NCBI GenBank assembly: GCA_031292515.1
Contig: JARLGZ010000275.1
Location: 1 to 64,000 of the forward strand
DNA: 64,000 nt
DNA from: Puia sp.
Lineage (GTDB): Bacteria; Bacteroidota; Bacteroidia; Chitinophagales; Chitinophagaceae
Direction: 5' to 3'
How positions within the stretch are numbered: position 1 is the first letter of the stretch; each line of letters starts with the position of its first letter. This document shows positions 1 to 59,459 of the stretch, one piece after another. A program made the position numbers and the translations under genes. Under the pieces are notes generated by a model that saw only the letters and a program-made list of their open reading frames with translations, was not told where the DNA came from and did no database searches.

Positions 1-133
1 AGTGAGTAGTGAGTAGTGAGTAGTGAGTAGTGAGTAGTGAGTAGTGAGTAGTGAGTAGTGAGTAGTGAGTAGTGAGTAGTGAGTAGTGAGTAGTGAGTAG
101 TGAGTAGTGAGTAGTGAGTAGTGAGTAGTGAGT
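1..133. repeat. Perfect AGTGAGT heptamer tandem array
   Basis: Nineteen uninterrupted copies of the 7-base unit AGTGAGT run from the first base of the window to base 133, so the array probably continues upstream. It ends 32 bases before the moaD start. Because the unit is not a multiple of three, the + strand reads TAG or TGA in all three frames, while the complement ACTCACT has no stop in any frame. Decayed relatives follow stop codons near 7108 and 12736, and one lies in antisense inside gcvP near 57200. It is probably a slippage-grown array attached to the stop codon of the gene upstream of the window. Confidence 0.97.
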
Positions 134-165
134 GAATTTGTCAATTAGTAAAGGTAAGAAAGAAT

Positions 166-399
166 ATGAAAGTGCAGGTTTTTGCGATGCTGAAAGATCA
201 TTTCGACAAGGAGTTTGAAGTGAGTGGCGGCGTGTCTGATCTGGAAGCATTGCGATCGAGACTACGTGATATGAATCCCGCCTCTTCGGCGTTATTGGAC
301 AGTTGCAGGTTTGCCGTGAATGATGAATTTATTGACAACGATTTTAAATTGCAGGAAAATGACATCGTCATCATCCTTCCCCCCAGCAGCGGCGGATAA
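166..399 (+). CDS. moaD: Molybdopterin synthase sulfur-carrier subunit MoaD
   Basis: This 77-residue ubiquitin-fold protein carries sulfur as a C-terminal thiocarboxylate and donates it to precursor Z inside molybdopterin synthase, in the cytoplasm. The sequence ends in the family's Gly-Gly tail (residues 76-77) after ILPPSSGG, and the length is normal for MoaD. The ATG follows a weakly purine-rich leader (GGTAAGAAAGAAT). The end of the gene overlaps the start of moaE by 41 bases, which suggests coupled production of the two subunits. It is the first complete gene of a molybdenum-cofactor operon whose earlier genes lie off the left edge. Confidence 0.93.
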   Translation: MKVQVFAMLKDHFDKEFEVSGGVSDLEALRSRLRDMNPASSALLDSCRFAVNDEFIDNDFKLQENDIVIILPPSSGG

Positions 400-898
400 C
401 AGCGCTTATATTTCCGCCGAACCGCTGGACATTGTCGCCCTGCTGGCCGGCGCCCATCATCCGGGCGCGGGGGCGCTCGTCCTCTTCAGCGGGGAAGTGC
501 GCGTCAACAGCCTCGGAAAAGAAGTAGACTTCCTGGAATATGAAGCCTACATCCCCCTGGCCTCGAAGATGATCCGGCAGGTACTCGAAGAGGCCAGGAG
601 CCGGTGGATGCTGCAGGCGGCTATCGCGCAGCACCGGGTGGGCAGGCTATCGATCGGGGAGAGCGCCGTAGTTGTGATCACGGCGGCCGCTCATCGGGGT
701 GAAGCCTACTCCGCCAACCGCTTTATCATCGATAAGATCAAACACGAGGTCCCCATCTGGAAATGTGAATATTTCGCAGACGGGACAAAAGTTTGGGGCG
801 GGAATTGCAACTGTCACGCCATCACCGGTGATCCGAAGAAACATATTTATGAGAGCCTTTCTCCTGGAATTCGGCAAATAGAACCCTTGCGGCCATGA
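359..898 (+). CDS. moaE: Molybdopterin synthase catalytic subunit MoaE
   Basis: MoaE is the catalytic large subunit of molybdopterin synthase, a heterotetramer with MoaD that inserts the dithiolene sulfurs of molybdopterin. The family signature is clear: IGE near residue 100, AHRGEAY near 111-117, then KHEVPIWKCE. The two lysines expected at the active site are K128 and K135, seven residues apart as in Escherichia coli MoaE (K119 and K126). I chose the ATG at 359 because AGGAAA sits just upstream. An in-frame ATG at 320 would lengthen the overlap with moaD without adding any family sequence. The predicted length is 179 residues, slightly long because of an N-terminal tail. It overlaps mobA by 4 bases (ATGA). 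Confidence 0.95.
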   Translation: MTSSSSFPPAAADNSAYISAEPLDIVALLAGAHHPGAGALVLFSGEVRVNSLGKEVDFLEYEAYIPLASKMIRQVLEEARSRWMLQAAIAQHRVGRLSIGESAVVVITAAAHRGEAYSANRFIIDKIKHEVPIWKCEYFADGTKVWGGNCNCHAITGDPKKHIYESLSPGIRQIEPLRP

Positions 899-1554
899 TG
901 CAGAGCCTATGTGGCGTCGTCTTGTGCGGCGGTGAAAGCCGGCGAATGGGGCGCGACAAAGGGTCCTTGCAGATCGGGCAAACCGTCTGGGCCCTGCATA
1001 TGACCGGGAAACTGGATTTCCTGCAGATCCCCGTATTTTACTCCGTAAACGAACGGCAGCTCGCAGCCTATTCGAGTTTCATACCGCCGGATAGACTGAT
1101 TGTGGATACAGAGAGCGTCAGGGGCCCCTTGAAGGGTTTATTAAGCGCTCATCGGGCGTTGCCCGGGTTGGACCTGTTGCTGCTGGCCTGCGATATGCTT
1201 GACCTGGACCGGCAGACACTCGAAAGACTGGTGAATGCCTATAACGGCGATGCATCCCGTGTCGGCAATCATCACGAAGCAGGATACCGGGGAGGCCGCG
1301 AGTTTGATTTTTTTGTATTCCAGGATGGACAGCGGGCGCAGCCTTTGTGCGGGATCTATACATCCCAGGGACTAACGCAGATCAGCGACTCGCCTGGAGA
1401 GCAGGCAAAAGGAGACGGAAAAGAACCAACGAACGCCGCCGGGCCCGGCGGCCCCGATTATAGCCTTCAGTCCATTTTGAAAAGAGGCAGGACGCAGCTG
1501 CTGGAAATGACCGGCGCGGCCGCCTTTAGAAATTATAATTCTCCCGAACAGTAA
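895..1554 (+). CDS. mobA: Molybdenum cofactor guanylyltransferase MobA
   Basis: MobA transfers GMP from GTP to molybdopterin to make the guanine dinucleotide form of the cofactor. The nucleotide-binding start LCGGESRRMGRDK (residues 10-22) matches the GTP-binding loop of the family, LLLACDM is the metal-binding strand, and QPLCGIY is the later conserved segment. It is third in the operon and its ATG overlaps the moaE stop; the adjacent ATG at 898 is an equally possible start. After QPLCGIY there is a Gly/Pro/Lys-rich low-complexity stretch of about 25 residues that is not typical of the family and looks like a loop insertion. An NTP-transferase with another cofactor substrate is possible, but the context favours MobA. 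Confidence 0.9.
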   Translation: MMQSLCGVVLCGGESRRMGRDKGSLQIGQTVWALHMTGKLDFLQIPVFYSVNERQLAAYSSFIPPDRLIVDTESVRGPLKGLLSAHRALPGLDLLLLACDMLDLDRQTLERLVNAYNGDASRVGNHHEAGYRGGREFDFFVFQDGQRAQPLCGIYTSQGLTQISDSPGEQAKGDGKEPTNAAGPGGPDYSLQSILKRGRTQLLEMTGAAAFRNYNSPEQ

Positions 1555-6498: not shown

Positions 6499-7110
6499 AT
6501 GCGAGGTAAAAAAAGATCACCGTATAAACTGGCTTTGGATGACCTGTACGTACGTCTTTGCGGTTTCGTTCATCTGACAAAAACGGAATTTGGGCAGTTG
6601 CTGCGATACATGGAGATACGGGAGTTTGACAAAAAGGTCCGGGTACTGGAGCGTGGTGAAACGGAGAAACACATTAATCTCGTGGCGGCTGGGCTGGTAC
6701 GCAAATACCTGGAAGTCAGAAAGCAGGAAATCATCTTTCAACTGGCCGAGGAAGGACACCCCATTTACTCGGAGATTTCCTTTCATTCCCGTACTCCTTC
6801 CGAACTTACCATCGAGACAATTGAGCCTACTACATTGATATCCATAAGTTATGACAGTCTGGAAGAAGTTTTCATGAAATTTCCAAAAGCCGAAAGATTG
6901 GGAAGACTGCTGGTGTCTGATCTCTTTGTGAGGAAGGATATGAACTATTTTAACCAACTGGAAAAGACGACCCGGCAGCGATTTCTGGAATATGTGCGGT
7001 CACACCCGCAACTCCTGCAGCGGGTGCCGCAAAAATATATAGCATCTTATCTGAATATAAAGCCAGAGACATTCAGCCGGCTGAAACACCTGTTGAAAGG
7101 GAAGAAATAG
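6499..7110 (+). CDS. Crp/Fnr-family transcriptional regulator (second of a tandem pair)
   Basis: This 203-residue paralogue of the preceding gene shares REFDKKV, SxxTIETIEP and an almost identical C-terminal recognition region, RVPQKYIASYLNIKPETFSR. The near identity of the DNA-binding helices suggests the two proteins recognise the same or overlapping sites, while the divergent beta-roll suggests different input signals. It has a charged N-terminal extension (MRGKKRSPYK). It is probably cotranscribed with its partner. Its stop codon opens a decayed AGTGAGT-type repeat. Confidence 0.88.
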   Translation: MRGKKRSPYKLALDDLYVRLCGFVHLTKTEFGQLLRYMEIREFDKKVRVLERGETEKHINLVAAGLVRKYLEVRKQEIIFQLAEEGHPIYSEISFHSRTPSELTIETIEPTTLISISYDSLEEVFMKFPKAERLGRLLVSDLFVRKDMNYFNQLEKTTRQRFLEYVRSHPQLLQRVPQKYIASYLNIKPETFSRLKHLLKGKK

Positions 7111-7150
7111 TCAGTAAATGAGTAGTTAGTAAGTGAGTAGTCAGTAGTCT
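7108..7150. repeat. Decayed AGTGAGT-type repeat after the second Crp gene
   Basis: Starting with the TAG stop of the second Crp-type gene there are about six degenerate copies of the heptamer (TAGTCAGTAAATGAGTAG and similar). The run fills most of the space to the convergent transporter gene. Stops occur in several frames, as in the perfect array at 1-133. Confidence 0.8.
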
Positions 7151-11082: not shown

Positions 11083-12738
11083 ATGAGTTTTAGAAATTTT
11101 AGTGTCCCGTATACGGTGGATGAAAGGTATTCGAAGAAAGTGGCTTATTTTTCCATGGAGTTTGCCGTGCATCAGCCGTTGAAAATTTACAGCGGCGGCC
11201 TGGGTTTCCTGGCAGGTTCGCATCTGCGCAGCGCCTATGAATTGCGTCAGAATATGATCAATATCGGTATTTTATGGAAATACGGGTACTATGACCAGGC
11301 CCGCAACCAGGACCAGACCCTGCAGGTGACCTGGATGGAAAAACAATACAGTTTCCTGGAAGACACCGGTATCAAATTCCAGGTCAATATCCATGAACAC
11401 CCGGTATGGGTCAAGGCCTGGTATCTCAATCCGGAGACCTTTAAAAGCGCGCCCTTATTCTTACTGAGCACCGACCTGCCGGAGAATGACTATGTCTCGC
11501 AGACGATCACCCATCGCCTGTATGATGCAAACGTCGCCACCAAGGTAGCCCAGTTCATCCTGCTGGGTGTTGGCGGTGCAAAACTGGTCGACGAACTGGG
11601 ATTCAATCCCGATCGGTATCATTTGAACGAAGCACATGCAATCAGCGCCGCATTCTATCTCTATCAGAAGTACGATAAAAATATTGAAGAAGTACGGAAA
11701 AAGCTCGTGTTTACTACCCATACGCCCGAAGAGGCGGGTAACGAAAAACACGATATCTATCTATGCCATAAGATGAGCTATTTCTGCGGTCTGTCCGTGG
11801 AAGAGACCAGGAAGCTCACCGGCCTGGAAGACGATGCCTTTAATCATTCGCTGGTGGCATTACGCTTTGCCCACCTCGCAAATGCCGTTTCGCAGCTTCA
11901 CGGGCAGGTCTCCAGGGTCATGTGGAGCAAGTACAGCAATATCTGTCCGATCATCTCGATCACCAATGCTCAAAACTGGCGCTACTGGGCAGACAAGGAG
12001 TTATACCGGAAAATGGAAGCGGGGGATGATTACTGGTGGGACGACCGTAAAAGATACATGAAGAAGAGGGCTTTTGAGATCGTCGCCGATCAGACCGGAA
12101 AGGTATTTGACCCCAATGTCTTCACCATCGTCTGGGCCCGGCGTTTTGCCGGATATAAAAGGGCGGAGCTCATCACCCGCGATATCGAACGTTTTAACAA
12201 ACTGACCAGCGATACGAGATATCCCGTTCAGATCATCTGGGCCGGGAAACCCTATCCCATGGATTACCCCGCGATCAATGAGTTCAACCATCTGGTGCAC
12301 CTGAGCAAGGGGTATAAGAACGTAGCGGTCGTGGTAGGCTATGAACTGGCTTTGTCGAAGCGCCTTAAACAAGCGGCCGATTGCTGGCTGAATAACCCGC
12401 GCGTCCCCCGGGAAGCGTCCGGCACAAGCGGTATGACGGCCGCGATGAACGGCGCCGTGAATTTCTCAACCGATGACGGATGGATCCCCGAGTTTATCAA
12501 TCATGGCAATAACGGTTTCGTGGTGCCTAAGGCCGATTACCTGAATATGCACGTAGAGCAGCAGGACCAGTATGATCTCGATATGATCTACGACATCCTC
12601 CTGAAACAGATATTGCCGCTATATTACGACAATCATGATACCTGGCGCCAGATCGCCAAGAATGGCATGCGTGACGTACGGTATCAGTTCGACGCCGGCC
12701 GCATGGCCCATGAGTATTATGAGCAGCTGTATAAATAG
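11083..12738 (+). CDS. glgP: Short GT35-type alpha-glucan phosphorylase-like protein lacking the PLP lysine
   Basis: This 551-residue protein matches the short bacterial alpha-glucan phosphorylase group, enzymes that release glucose-1-phosphate from glycogen or maltodextrin. Seen are YFSMEFAVH, YSGGLGFLAGSH, HLNEAHA, ARRFAGYKRAELI and the cofactor-loop equivalent EASGTSGMTAAMNG. In PLP-dependent phosphorylases the residue after GM or NM is the Lys that binds pyridoxal phosphate; here codon 452 is ACG (Thr). The rest of the loop is intact and the reading frame is undamaged. Either this branch works without PLP, is a non-phosphorolytic glycosyltransferase, or is inactive. It is a single gene with inverted repeats in its leader. 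Confidence 0.85.
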   Translation: MSFRNFSVPYTVDERYSKKVAYFSMEFAVHQPLKIYSGGLGFLAGSHLRSAYELRQNMINIGILWKYGYYDQARNQDQTLQVTWMEKQYSFLEDTGIKFQVNIHEHPVWVKAWYLNPETFKSAPLFLLSTDLPENDYVSQTITHRLYDANVATKVAQFILLGVGGAKLVDELGFNPDRYHLNEAHAISAAFYLYQKYDKNIEEVRKKLVFTTHTPEEAGNEKHDIYLCHKMSYFCGLSVEETRKLTGLEDDAFNHSLVALRFAHLANAVSQLHGQVSRVMWSKYSNICPIISITNAQNWRYWADKELYRKMEAGDDYWWDDRKRYMKKRAFEIVADQTGKVFDPNVFTIVWARRFAGYKRAELITRDIERFNKLTSDTRYPVQIIWAGKPYPMDYPAINEFNHLVHLSKGYKNVAVVVGYELALSKRLKQAADCWLNNPRVPREASGTSGMTAAMNGAVNFSTDDGWIPEFINHGNNGFVVPKADYLNMHVEQQDQYDLDMIYDILLKQILPLYYDNHDTWRQIAKNGMRDVRYQFDAGRMAHEYYEQLYK

Positions 12739-12849
12739 TGAGTAGTGAGTAATCAGTAGTGAGTGGTAAGTAGTGGGGTGTGAGTAGTCAGTAGTGAGTA
12801 GTAAATCGTAGTAAATAGTGTGTAATGAGTAGTGAGCGGAGAGTGATGA
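12736..12849. repeat. Decayed AGTGAGT-type array after the phosphorylase-like gene
   Basis: The array begins with the TAG stop of the preceding gene (TAGTGAGTAGTGAGTAATC) and runs about 110 bases with many point changes and small indels (GTAAATCG, AGTGTGTAATG). It is the same family as the perfect array at 1-133 and has TAG or TGA in every + strand frame. Confidence 0.88.
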
Positions 12850-12911
12850 GTGCTACGGCCATGCTTTTTTAATTGATCTTAAAGTTCCAATGCTTCCAAC
12901 CGACCCCTGAT

Positions 12912-56537: not shown

Positions 56538-59459
56538 CTAATTGGCAATCGCCTCTTCCGCATAGGAAGATACGGGTTCACAGGTGCAGATCAGGTTCCG
56601 GTCCCCATAGGTATTGTTTACCCGGGCAATGCTGGGCCAGAATTTGTTCTCTTTCAAATAGGGCAGGGGAAAGGCCGCCTGCTGACGGGTATAGGCGTGT
56701 TTCCATTCGTCGGCGCAGATTACATGCTGGGTGTGCGGCGCATTCTTAAGAGCATTATCGGTTTTGTCCGCGTTGCCGTCTTCTATGGCCTTTATCTCCT
56801 GGTAGATGCCGATCATGGCGTCACAAAAACGATCCAGTTCTGCTTTGTCCTCGCTTTCGGTGGGCTCGATCATGATCGTGCCGGGAACGGGAAAGCTGAG
56901 CGTGGGCGCGTGGAAGCCGTAGTCCATGAGACGTTTGGCGACGTCCTCCGCTTCGACCCCGGCACGGGTCTTAAAAGGCCGGAGATCCACGATGAATTCG
57001 TGTGCACAGGTGCCGTTGGCCCCGCTGTATAATATCGGGTAATATTTTTCCAACCGGGTTTTCATGTAGTTGGCATTCAGGATCGCATACCTCGTGGCCT
57101 GGGTCAGCCCCTCTCCTCCCAGCATTTTGATATAGGCATAGCTGATGAGCAGTATGCTCGCCGAGCCATAGGGCGCGGAGGAGATGGCGTGAGAAGGGTG
57201 AGACAGTGAGTCGTCGGTAGTGAGTGGTGAGTGGGGGTTACTGACGATATGTCCGGGCAGGAAAGGCTTTAGTTTCTCGTTCACGCAGATCGGGCCCATG
57301 CCCGGGCCACCGCCTCCATGCGGGATGGCGAAGGTTTTGTGGAGGTTCAGGTGACAGACATCCGCACCGATCGCCCCGGGGCTGGTAAACCCTACCTGCG
57401 CATTCATATTGGCCCCATCCATGTATACCAATCCGCCGTTGTCATGAACGGTACGACAGATCTCTTTGATGCTTTCTTCGAATACACCATGCGTGGAAGG
57501 ATAGGTAATCATCAGCCCGGCAAGCCGGTCTTTGTATTGCACTGCCTTGTTTTTAAGGTCCGTCGTGTCTACATGCCCCTCCTCATCACTCTTCACCACC
57601 ACGACCTTCATGCCCGCCATGATGGCGCTGGCGGGATTGGTGCCGTGCGCGGAGATAGGTATCAGCATGACGTCGCGATACCCTTCCTTTCTTGCGGCAT
57701 GGTAGGCGCGTATCGTCAGTAAACCGGCATATTCGCCCTGCGCTCCGCTGTTGGGCTGCAGGGATGTGGCCGCAAAGCCGGTGATCTGGCTAAGCCAGGA
57801 TGCCAGTTCGTTCAGGATCTGCTGGTAGCCTTGCCATTGGTCTGCCGGGGCAAAAGGATGCAAACCGCCGAATTCGGGCCAGCTGACGGGTATCAGTTCC
57901 GTAGCCGCGTTCAGCTTCATTGTACAGGATCCCAGGGAGATCATGGACGTATTCAAGGACAGATCCTTGTTTTCCAGGCTTTTGAGATAACGCATCATTT
58001 GGCTTTCGCTATGATGGGTATTGAATACCGGGTGCTTGAGGAATTCGGCGGTACGCGTGCTGTAGGCAGGGATATTATCCAGGCTGTCTTCCACGTCAAA
58101 GGTGACCGAGACGGTATCCGAACCCGTCATCTCCCCGAAAACGGAAAGGATATTCAGCACATCGTGTTGTGTGGTCGTTTCGTCCAGGGAAATGCTGATG
58201 CCATCGGTACCGTCATAGTAAAAGTTTATACCCCGAGCCTCCGCGACCGCCCGGAGTGCCGTCGGGTTGTCTGGTTTCAACCGTATGGTATCGAAATAAA
58301 ATTCGTTCTCGTTGTTGAATCCCAATGCTTCCAGTTCATAAGACAGCGTCTGGGTGAGCATGCTGACCCTTTTGGCGATATCGGTCAGTCCTTTGGGACC
58401 ATGATAAACGGCGTACATCGCGGCCATATTTGCAAGCAGGGCCTGGGCAGTGCAAATATTGGAGGTGGCTTTTTCCCGCTTGATATGCTGTTCGCGGGTC
58501 TGGAGTGCCATACGAAGGGCCCGGTTGCCTTGCGCATCGATGCTTATGCCGATGATCCTGCCCGGGATGGCCCTCTTGAAATCATCTCTCGCTGCAAAAA
58601 AAGCCGCGTGCGGTCCTCCGAAGCCCATGGGGACCCCAAAACGCTGAGAGGATCCCACGGCCGCGTCGGCACCGAGCTCACCCGGAGGTGTTAGCAAAGT
58701 GAGCGCGAGAAGATCGGTGGCCATGACGACATAACCGCCGTGGTCGTGGACCTGGCCGATGAATTTGCGATAGTCCCTTATGGAGCCATTGCTGTCGGGA
58801 TATTGAACGATCGCCCCGAAATAAGATTCGTCGATGGTGGCCTGGCGATAGTCGCCCGTCACCAACTCGATCCCTACCGGGATCGCCCGTGTCAAAAGGA
58901 TGTCTTTTGTCTGGGGGAAGAGTTTGTCATCGACGAAGAACTTAGGGACGGTGATGTGATCGTGGTCCTTATTCTTCAGGTTAAAGAACATGGTCATCGC
59001 TTCGGCGGCGGCAGTCCCTTCATCGAGGAGGGAGGCATTGGCCAGCGGCAGCGCCGTCAGATCGGACACCATGGTCTGAAAGTTCAGCAGGCTTTCCAAC
59101 CGTCCCTGGGCTATTTCGGCCTGGTAGGGTGTATATTGAGTATACCAGCCGGGGTTTTCAAATACATTCCGGAGGATGACGCTGGGTACAATCGTATTAT
59201 AGTAGCCCTGGCCGATATAGGACTTATATACTTTATTTCTTGCCGCAACCTGCTTTAGGTCGCTAAGATATTGATACTCACTGACCGGCCCGGGGATCGA
59301 CAGCGGTCGGGGATTGCGGATGGAAAGAGGGATGGTCTTGTCGATTAACTCTTCAAAGCTATGCACGCCGATGGTTCTCAGCATCCTCGAAGTTTCCTGC
59401 TCATTGGGTCCTATATGCCTGCCGGCGAATTCATTGGCCTGTTGTTCGAATAGGTTCAT
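56538..59459 (-). CDS. gcvP: Glycine dehydrogenase (decarboxylating), single-chain P-protein
   Basis: GcvP is the PLP enzyme that decarboxylates glycine and hands the aminomethyl group to the lipoyl H-protein in the glycine cleavage system. The 973-residue chain has both halves of P-protein fused: [12 protein letters not shown] at the start, [14 protein letters not shown], then the PLP site [19 protein letters not shown] with the cofactor Lys. An insert of about 8 residues beyond the usual length lies in a loop after LPGHIVS ([17 protein letters not shown]) and is encoded by antisense AGTGAGT-type repeat DNA. No gcvT or gcvH is next to it. Confidence 0.97.
57189..57236. repeat. AGTGAGT-type repeat inside the gcvP coding region
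   Basis: The + strand reads GTGAGAAGGGTGAGACAGTG, then GAGTCGTCGGTAGTGAGTGG and TGAGTGGGGG. These are degenerate heptamers matching the array at 1-133. gcvP is read from the other strand, where the repeat has no stop codons, and yields the His/Ser/Thr/Leu-rich loop. Confidence 0.85.

Follow-up and report, generated by a model that had tools for sequence, protein, structure and literature searches.

Tandem repeats of 7-nucleotide units have been described separately in Xanthomonas, Nostoc and Beggiatoa, and have been explained as quadruplexes, translational regulators or products of rearrangement. Rehm et al. (2015) reported GGGAATC and GGGGA(C/T)T heptamers from Xanthomonas and Nostoc (PMC4692102). 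The Xanthomonas GGGAATC repeats are intergenic, most commonly four units long, and lie 0 to 50 bp downstream of, or overlapping, a stop codon when on the coding strand and close upstream of genes when on the non-coding strand; 70 and 75 convergent pairs were counted in two genomes, with few between divergent genes (PMC4692102). At the G4-capable Xanthomonas repeats, transcripts begin or stop more often (PMC4692102). TAACTGA direct repeats, described by MacGregor (2015) in Beggiatoaceae, lie mostly just upstream of starts and read forward to the downstream gene, with one indirect repeat against 169 sets of direct repeats (PMC4679880). The same paper quotes Mrazek's proposal that a length of 7 nt suits polymerase slippage (PMC4679880). 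The short tandem repeats (STRR) of Nostoc and other cyanobacteria are also 7-bp repeats; they can form hairpins, and one is located near a gene 3' end (PMC2670836).

We analyzed a 64,000-nucleotide stretch of a Puia sp. draft genome (the window), which opens with an array of AGTGAGT units. These repeats resemble GGGAATC in their 7-nt unit, their location on the coding strand at stop codons, their inverted pairs and their four-unit mode, whereas GGGAATC has G runs, forms quadruplexes in vitro and contains no stop, and AGTGAGT has no GG and holds stops (PMC4692102). With TAACTGA they share the heptamer, stops in three forward frames and a scatter over distant phyla, Bacteroidetes among them; some Beggiatoaceae relatives also have contigs ending in the repeats (PMC4679880). 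The placement differs: TAACTGA-type arrays mostly stand forward, right before starts, and those of our genome stand at stop codons (PMC4679880). The cyanobacterial STRRs have another sequence, and the available part of their description gives no stop-codon register (PMC2670836). Having tandem 7-nt units that are mainly intergenic, the AGTGAGT arrays belong among the heptanucleotide simple-sequence repeats (LSSR/STRR); their main unit has no run of G, which places them outside the quadruplex-forming group. Among titles and abstracts listed from the open-access literature, none pointed to a report of AGTGAGT repeats or of word exchange within one genus.

Two kinds of dispersed element are also relevant. 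REP/BIME elements, which are mobilized by RAYT, are dispersed, palindromic and intergenic and lie 3' of genes, features that the heptad elements described below share; the latter differ in having arms of tandem heptads and in that five heptad-bearing drafts have no match to a Y1 transposase. Rickettsia palindromic elements place a repeat in frame inside conserved genes. Heptads also occur in genes, but only as short stretches, and are mainly intergenic.

The array between moaA and moaD

The features of the window considered here are as follows.

1 to 133, plus strand: array of 19 perfect AGTGAGT units that opens the contig, with moaA (contig C198) on its upstream side and moaD on its downstream side
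134 to 162, plus strand: 29 bases that recur, identical, at the end of contig C198 on the 3' side of an array with 9 units
166 to 399, plus strand: moaD (TIGR01682, score below the curated cut-off)
320 to 898, plus strand: moaE-like ORF, called here from a start that lies within moaD; translation probably begins at a more internal site
895 to 1554, plus strand: mobA-like ORF
7108 to 7148, plus strand: degenerate array whose first base is the T of a TAG stop (gene ending at 7110)
11083 to 12738, plus strand: alpha-glucan family phosphorylase (TIGR02094), with a stop position common to 28 of 29 relatives
12736 to 12851, plus strand: degenerate array, starting on the phosphorylase TAG stop
57198 to 57232, plus strand: degenerate array within gcvP (56538 to 59459, minus strand); the array runs antisense to gcvP and is hence stop-free

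The draft genome comprises 7.34 Mb in 285 contigs, and base 1 of the window is the first base of contig C143. The gliding protein GldG encoded in the draft suggests that it belongs to the Bacteroidota. Read directly, positions 1 to 133 bear out the original prediction of 19 perfect units before moaD, and 32 nt separate the array end from the moaD ATG at 166. The upstream side of the locus was found on the minus strand of contig C198, in the order moaA (identified by TIGR02666, somewhat under the cut-off), TAG stop, 7 nt, nine units and 29 bases. Because these 29 bases equal window positions 134 to 162, the order of the locus is moaA-array-moaD-moaE-mobA. The number of units is in conflict between the contigs, being 9 on C198 and at least 19 on C143; "19" is one assembly path, and neither 9 nor 19 can be trusted as a copy number.

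At this locus the array begins 7 nt past the moaA stop and not on the stop codon itself. MoaA usually ends in Gly-Gly, and the protein encoded here does so too; the moaA stop is therefore probably native, with the array placed directly behind it. The degenerate arrays at 7108 and 12736 behave differently and, as was originally proposed, start on TAG stops, their first base being the T of TAG. It also held true that AGTGAGT presents TAG or TGA in all three sense frames and neither in the antisense frames. The fourth copy in the window, inside gcvP at 57198 to 57232, was absent from the original prediction. Altogether, the window has 30 near-matches to the AGTGAGT dimer (18 of them within 1 to 133), against a mean of 0.17 in shuffled sequences.

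A genome-wide family anchored at stop codons

The whole genome contains 89 exact AGTGAGT dimers and no dimer of the reversed unit. We sampled 60 stretches totaling 1.26 Mb, a sixth of the genome (42 selected for an exact dimer, L080 adjacent to such a site, and 17 chosen arbitrarily, without an exact dimer), in which a simple in-house script called 973 genes and a tolerant scan detected 110 arrays. Seventy-four of these start within -18 to +15 nt of a same-strand stop, compared with 3.9 ± 1.9 for random intergenic placement. The arbitrary stretches and the window together cover 404 kb and contain 17 arrays, 14 of which start at a same-strand stop, compared with 0.63 at random; without the window the count is 12 of 13. 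This tabulation of a sampled sixth of the genome, a check that had been proposed for the whole genome, shows that array positions are not random with respect to stop codons. The arbitrary stretches and the window give 42 arrays per Mb, or 38 when the window is left out, a density that omits exact-dimer sites other than those in the window; extrapolation from the sample gives approximately 300 array sites per genome.

Part of this association follows by construction, since any ORF running into an array that contains stops is bound to terminate inside it. Where a gene's stop and an array overlap, the stop is TAG (41) or TGA (16) and never TAA. The 17 arrays that begin on the stop or downstream of it escape this bias, and their stops are TGA (9), TAA (5) and TAG (3). 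Direction is as consistent as position: 95 of 101 arrays in gaps point inward, plus-strand arrays being in the left half of the gap and minus-strand arrays in the right. The commonest size is four units (37/110), and degenerate runs reach 36 units. A long, nearly pure GGTCAGT array (G000:C27:7416-7506) represents another unit variant that expanded separately.

The same layout with other words

Relatives have the same layout built from other words. A congener (G002) has 339 AAGCTNC dimers, and GTTGATG dimers number 134 in G006 and 107 in G020; the reversed patterns were absent from all three genomes. The reversed unit was discarded as a clean control in relatives, TGAGTGA itself being an array word in G006, G015 and G016. 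At gene 3' ends, AAGCTNC arrays of G002 were sense in 12 cases and antisense in 1 (among 24 arrays), and those of the GTTGATG genomes were sense in 24 and antisense in 1 (among 36); the remaining arrays are at 5' ends, within ORFs or at other places in gaps.

AGTGAGT itself is found in many phyla. Of at least 116 stretches located in public sequences, 80 loci with 81 arrays were analyzed with simple gene calling: 35 arrays were sense and 1 antisense at gene 3' ends, 7 were antisense and 1 sense directly upstream of starts, 10 were scored as inside ORFs, and 27 were elsewhere in gaps.

Inverted pairs and a palindromic core

The own-genome sample contains 18 close inverted pairs, whose arms match each other better than shuffled pairs do in all but 24 of 1,000 shuffles. 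An inverted partner (score 12) was detected at 19 of the 74 stop-anchored arrays, with control counts of 2 for the reversed word and 7 for its complement (not independent). Spacers between arms run from -2 to 369 nt and have little common sequence. A fixed core in this genome was rejected, in that only fragments such as GGGATGAAGACGT recur next to arms. This fragment, or a close form of it, follows an AGTGAGT arm in five stretches (L052, L069, L070, L076 and L077) and is possibly half of an old core.

In G006 and G020, 12 of the 24 plus/minus pairs listed share an offset of exactly 44 bases, and the others have offsets of 51 to 151. Ten cores from G006, G008 and G020 measure 29 to 32 nt, eight of them 30 nt, with 27 to 33 nt allowed in extraction; the assignment of L467, L480 and L483 to G008 is based on locus order and a match to L326. 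The eight copies with 30-nt cores were aligned, leaving out the 29- and 32-nt cores, and their consensus is a near-perfect 86-nt palindrome. Terminal inverted repeats, a MITE trait, are thus present in the GTTGATG elements, and the own genome has a partner only at the 19 of 74 arrays given above. Loops between AAGCTNC arms of G002 (L436, L437 and L450) often hold a motif close to GACCTAATAAATCC (by eye).

At the gathering score, an Rfam search of 10 element-holding sources other than the window returned only a tRNA, and a known RNA family was ruled out for these sources. The Y1 transposase (RAYT domain) had no match in the heptad-bearing drafts G006, G008, G016, G018 and G020, which are 74 to 99% complete (G008, 99%). 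One to five Y1 matches, undifferentiated as to subtype, were found in each of G002, G015, G019, G026 and G027, and one was found in the own genome. On the five drafts with no match, RAYT mobilization was rejected for the class as a whole; in the own genome, with its single match, it may still apply. Neither a target-site duplication, nor an empty site with matching flanks, nor a mobilizing enzyme was found in the material sampled.

Arrays at and inside conserved genes

The phosphorylase stop is at the same position in 28 of 29 relatives and in our genome, the remaining relative being longer by two residues (by eye). No AGTGAGT array occurs in the 147 nt 3' of this stop in any of the 29 (by eye); G027 has a different, degenerate heptad run after it (by eye). 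The piperidine-6-carboxylate dehydrogenase gene of our genome extends past the end of 26 of 27 readable relatives by an array-coded Ser-Glu (by eye; 2 of the 29 rows were unreadable), and the array has displaced the stop of a conserved gene. No AGTGAGT array follows the dehydrogenase gene in the relatives examined. Three relatives have GTTGATG heptads 15 to 21 nt past the same stop (by eye), and in two loci (L329 and L321, from G005 and G018) AACGCNN heptads begin exactly at the dehydrogenase TAA stop (by eye). The last residues of coproporphyrinogen oxidase and of GldG are likewise array-coded, but the C termini of these two proteins vary among relatives, some hemF and GldG rows with a wrong or partial ORF having been excluded from the count.

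Six arrays of the own-genome sample lie well inside called genes, among them gcvP and prmC (a looser criterion gives 10 arrays inside an ORF), and all six are antisense and hence stop-free. In G002, both clear cases of an AAGCTNC array inside a gene are sense, which is a stop-free strand for that word; three rows (L479 and L483) were set aside as intergenic hairpins called as spurious ORFs, and L473 was set aside because it abuts Ns. Stops decide which direction survives inside genes and not the direction at gene ends. The gcvP array (57198 to 57232) adds a peptide to a conserved enzyme, prmC (L068, 11656 to 12711) has a longer heptad insert of the same kind, and the in-gene arrays of G002 encode KLQAAS-type peptide repeats (L433, 1488 to 1562; L458, 1501 to 1531).

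What the arrays may be

We postulate, with about even confidence for and against, that the 19-unit array is the overgrown arm of a dispersed intergenic REP/MITE-like inverted-repeat element that grows by slippage. It starts from what is observed: a genome-wide family with stop anchoring, inward direction and a four-unit mode, together with inverted pairs, a conserved core in relatives and arrays inside genes. The basic element would consist of two mirror-image arms of about four heptads, separated by a spacer, and the paired arms could let DNA or RNA form an extended hairpin. The outer end of the element would sit at a boundary between coding and intergenic sequence, most often a stop codon. 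Because the ends of an inverted repeat read alike inwards, sense direction at gene ends would follow whether or not the unit contains stops, and an insertion into a gene would survive only if the inserted arm were stop-free in that frame. Copies may have spread by insertion, with arms growing, shrinking and decaying by slippage to leave one-armed arrays as presumed relics; the 19-unit array is probably such a one-armed copy of a heptad-armed inverted-repeat element.

Several observations count against an inserted element. A recognizable partner stands at about a quarter of the stop-anchored arrays in our genome, half of the G006 and G020 pairs listed have an offset other than 44, and the eight aligned copies have no covariation beyond the family consensus. 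Random insertion followed by selection would not require so sharp a register as the zero offset found at many stops, and part of the stop association follows by construction. The spacers of our genome vary widely and share little sequence, five heptad-bearing drafts have no Y1 match, and the search for a target-site duplication, an empty site or a mobilizing enzyme was negative. In the public set, 37 of 81 arrays lie inside ORFs or elsewhere in gaps.

Within one genus, arrays built from different words agree in anchoring, direction, four-unit size and inverted pairing, and this separates architecture from sequence. Quadruplexes and multi-frame stops thereby drop out as general explanations, and a shared process of origin is indicated. 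A broader and more speculative hypothesis, to which we give rather little weight, is that many phyla share one element class defined by architecture: two inward arms of about four heptads, set base-exact at coding ends, with replacement of the whole word within a genus. Its words would be AGTGAGT, TGAGTGA, GTTGATG, GTGAATG, AAGCTNC and AACGCNN (the last at two loci only). If the hypothesis is true, some activity writes, copies and homogenizes 7-nt words at gene ends.

An alternative hypothesis, which we consider unlikely, is that the arrays are pure functionless microsatellites, one word per species, in which heptads grow by slippage from the stop codon, where a length change of 7 nt first ceases to harm the protein. 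Growth from the stop was also the mechanism originally suggested, and stop anchoring, the perfect units and the conflict between 9 and at least 19 units agree with it, as does the array at 12736, located exactly at a stop position that 28 of 29 relatives share. Period 7 dominates among tandem repeats of period 4 to 12, accounting for 71 of 93 perfect arrays in an array-enriched sample and for 23 of 28 intergenic repeats in our genome and nine relatives (a survey of 40 stretches from 28 relatives and 340 kb of our genome, some chosen for arrays). Mrazek's slippage proposal points the same way (PMC4679880). However, slippage alone does not give one common word at approximately 300 sites per genome, and it leaves unexplained the sense direction of a stop-less word at gene ends, the inverted partners, the repeated 30-nt palindromic core of the relatives and the arrays within gcvP and prmC.

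It is less probable still that the arrays are selected RNA hairpins, in which a 3' stem defines the mRNA end, shields it or serves as a target for RNase III, and the sequence drifts as long as the arms pair. Stems are predicted to be strong in 10 chosen pairs, with folding z scores of -6.7 to -15.6 for five copies from relatives and -4.2 to -7.7 for five pairs from our genome, and a comparison of the elements at the same gene in G006 and G008 shows two arm positions at which both members of the pair differ (by eye). As a sign of compensatory change, the better match of arms in our genome to their true partners (all but 24 of 1,000 shuffles) is weakly positive. Nostoc STRR hairpins near gene ends (PMC2670836) and the more frequent transcript starts and stops in G4-capable Xanthomonas repeats (PMC4692102) are further precedents. 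Against selection on the RNA, the majority of the arrays in our genome have no partner, the eight aligned copies show 79.9% paired positions versus 80.1% in shuffled ones, and the relatives examined have no AGTGAGT array behind either the phosphorylase gene or the dehydrogenase gene. The folding of the five copies from relatives counts for the inverted-repeat element as well.

The function suggested originally, a multi-frame stop selected as a barrier to read-through or for translational coupling, now seems very improbable, and as a general reason for the arrays it fails. AGTGAGT, TGAGTGA, GTGAATG and GTTGATG do have sense stops in all frames, and genes whose stop lies in an array never end in TAA, but this stop usage follows from the array's own letters. 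AAGCTNC (G002), GGTTCAA (once, in G015), GGGAATC and GGGGATT have no sense stops. Since AAGCTNC nonetheless keeps the same 3' placement, stops cannot place arrays in general; the placement of the published GGGAATC is also the same (PMC4692102). Moreover, 19 units, or degenerate runs of up to 36, offer no gain over three.

An assembly artefact at a contig end, to which the array at base 1 of C143 and the difference in copy number between two contigs might point, accounts for the number of units but hardly for the array, given that the AGTGAGT family occurs at dozens of within-contig sites and in other genomes. Elsewhere in the draft, the ends of contigs C207 (start of L068) and C81 (end of L046) overlap by exactly 141 bases, and these two contigs are therefore probably neighbors.
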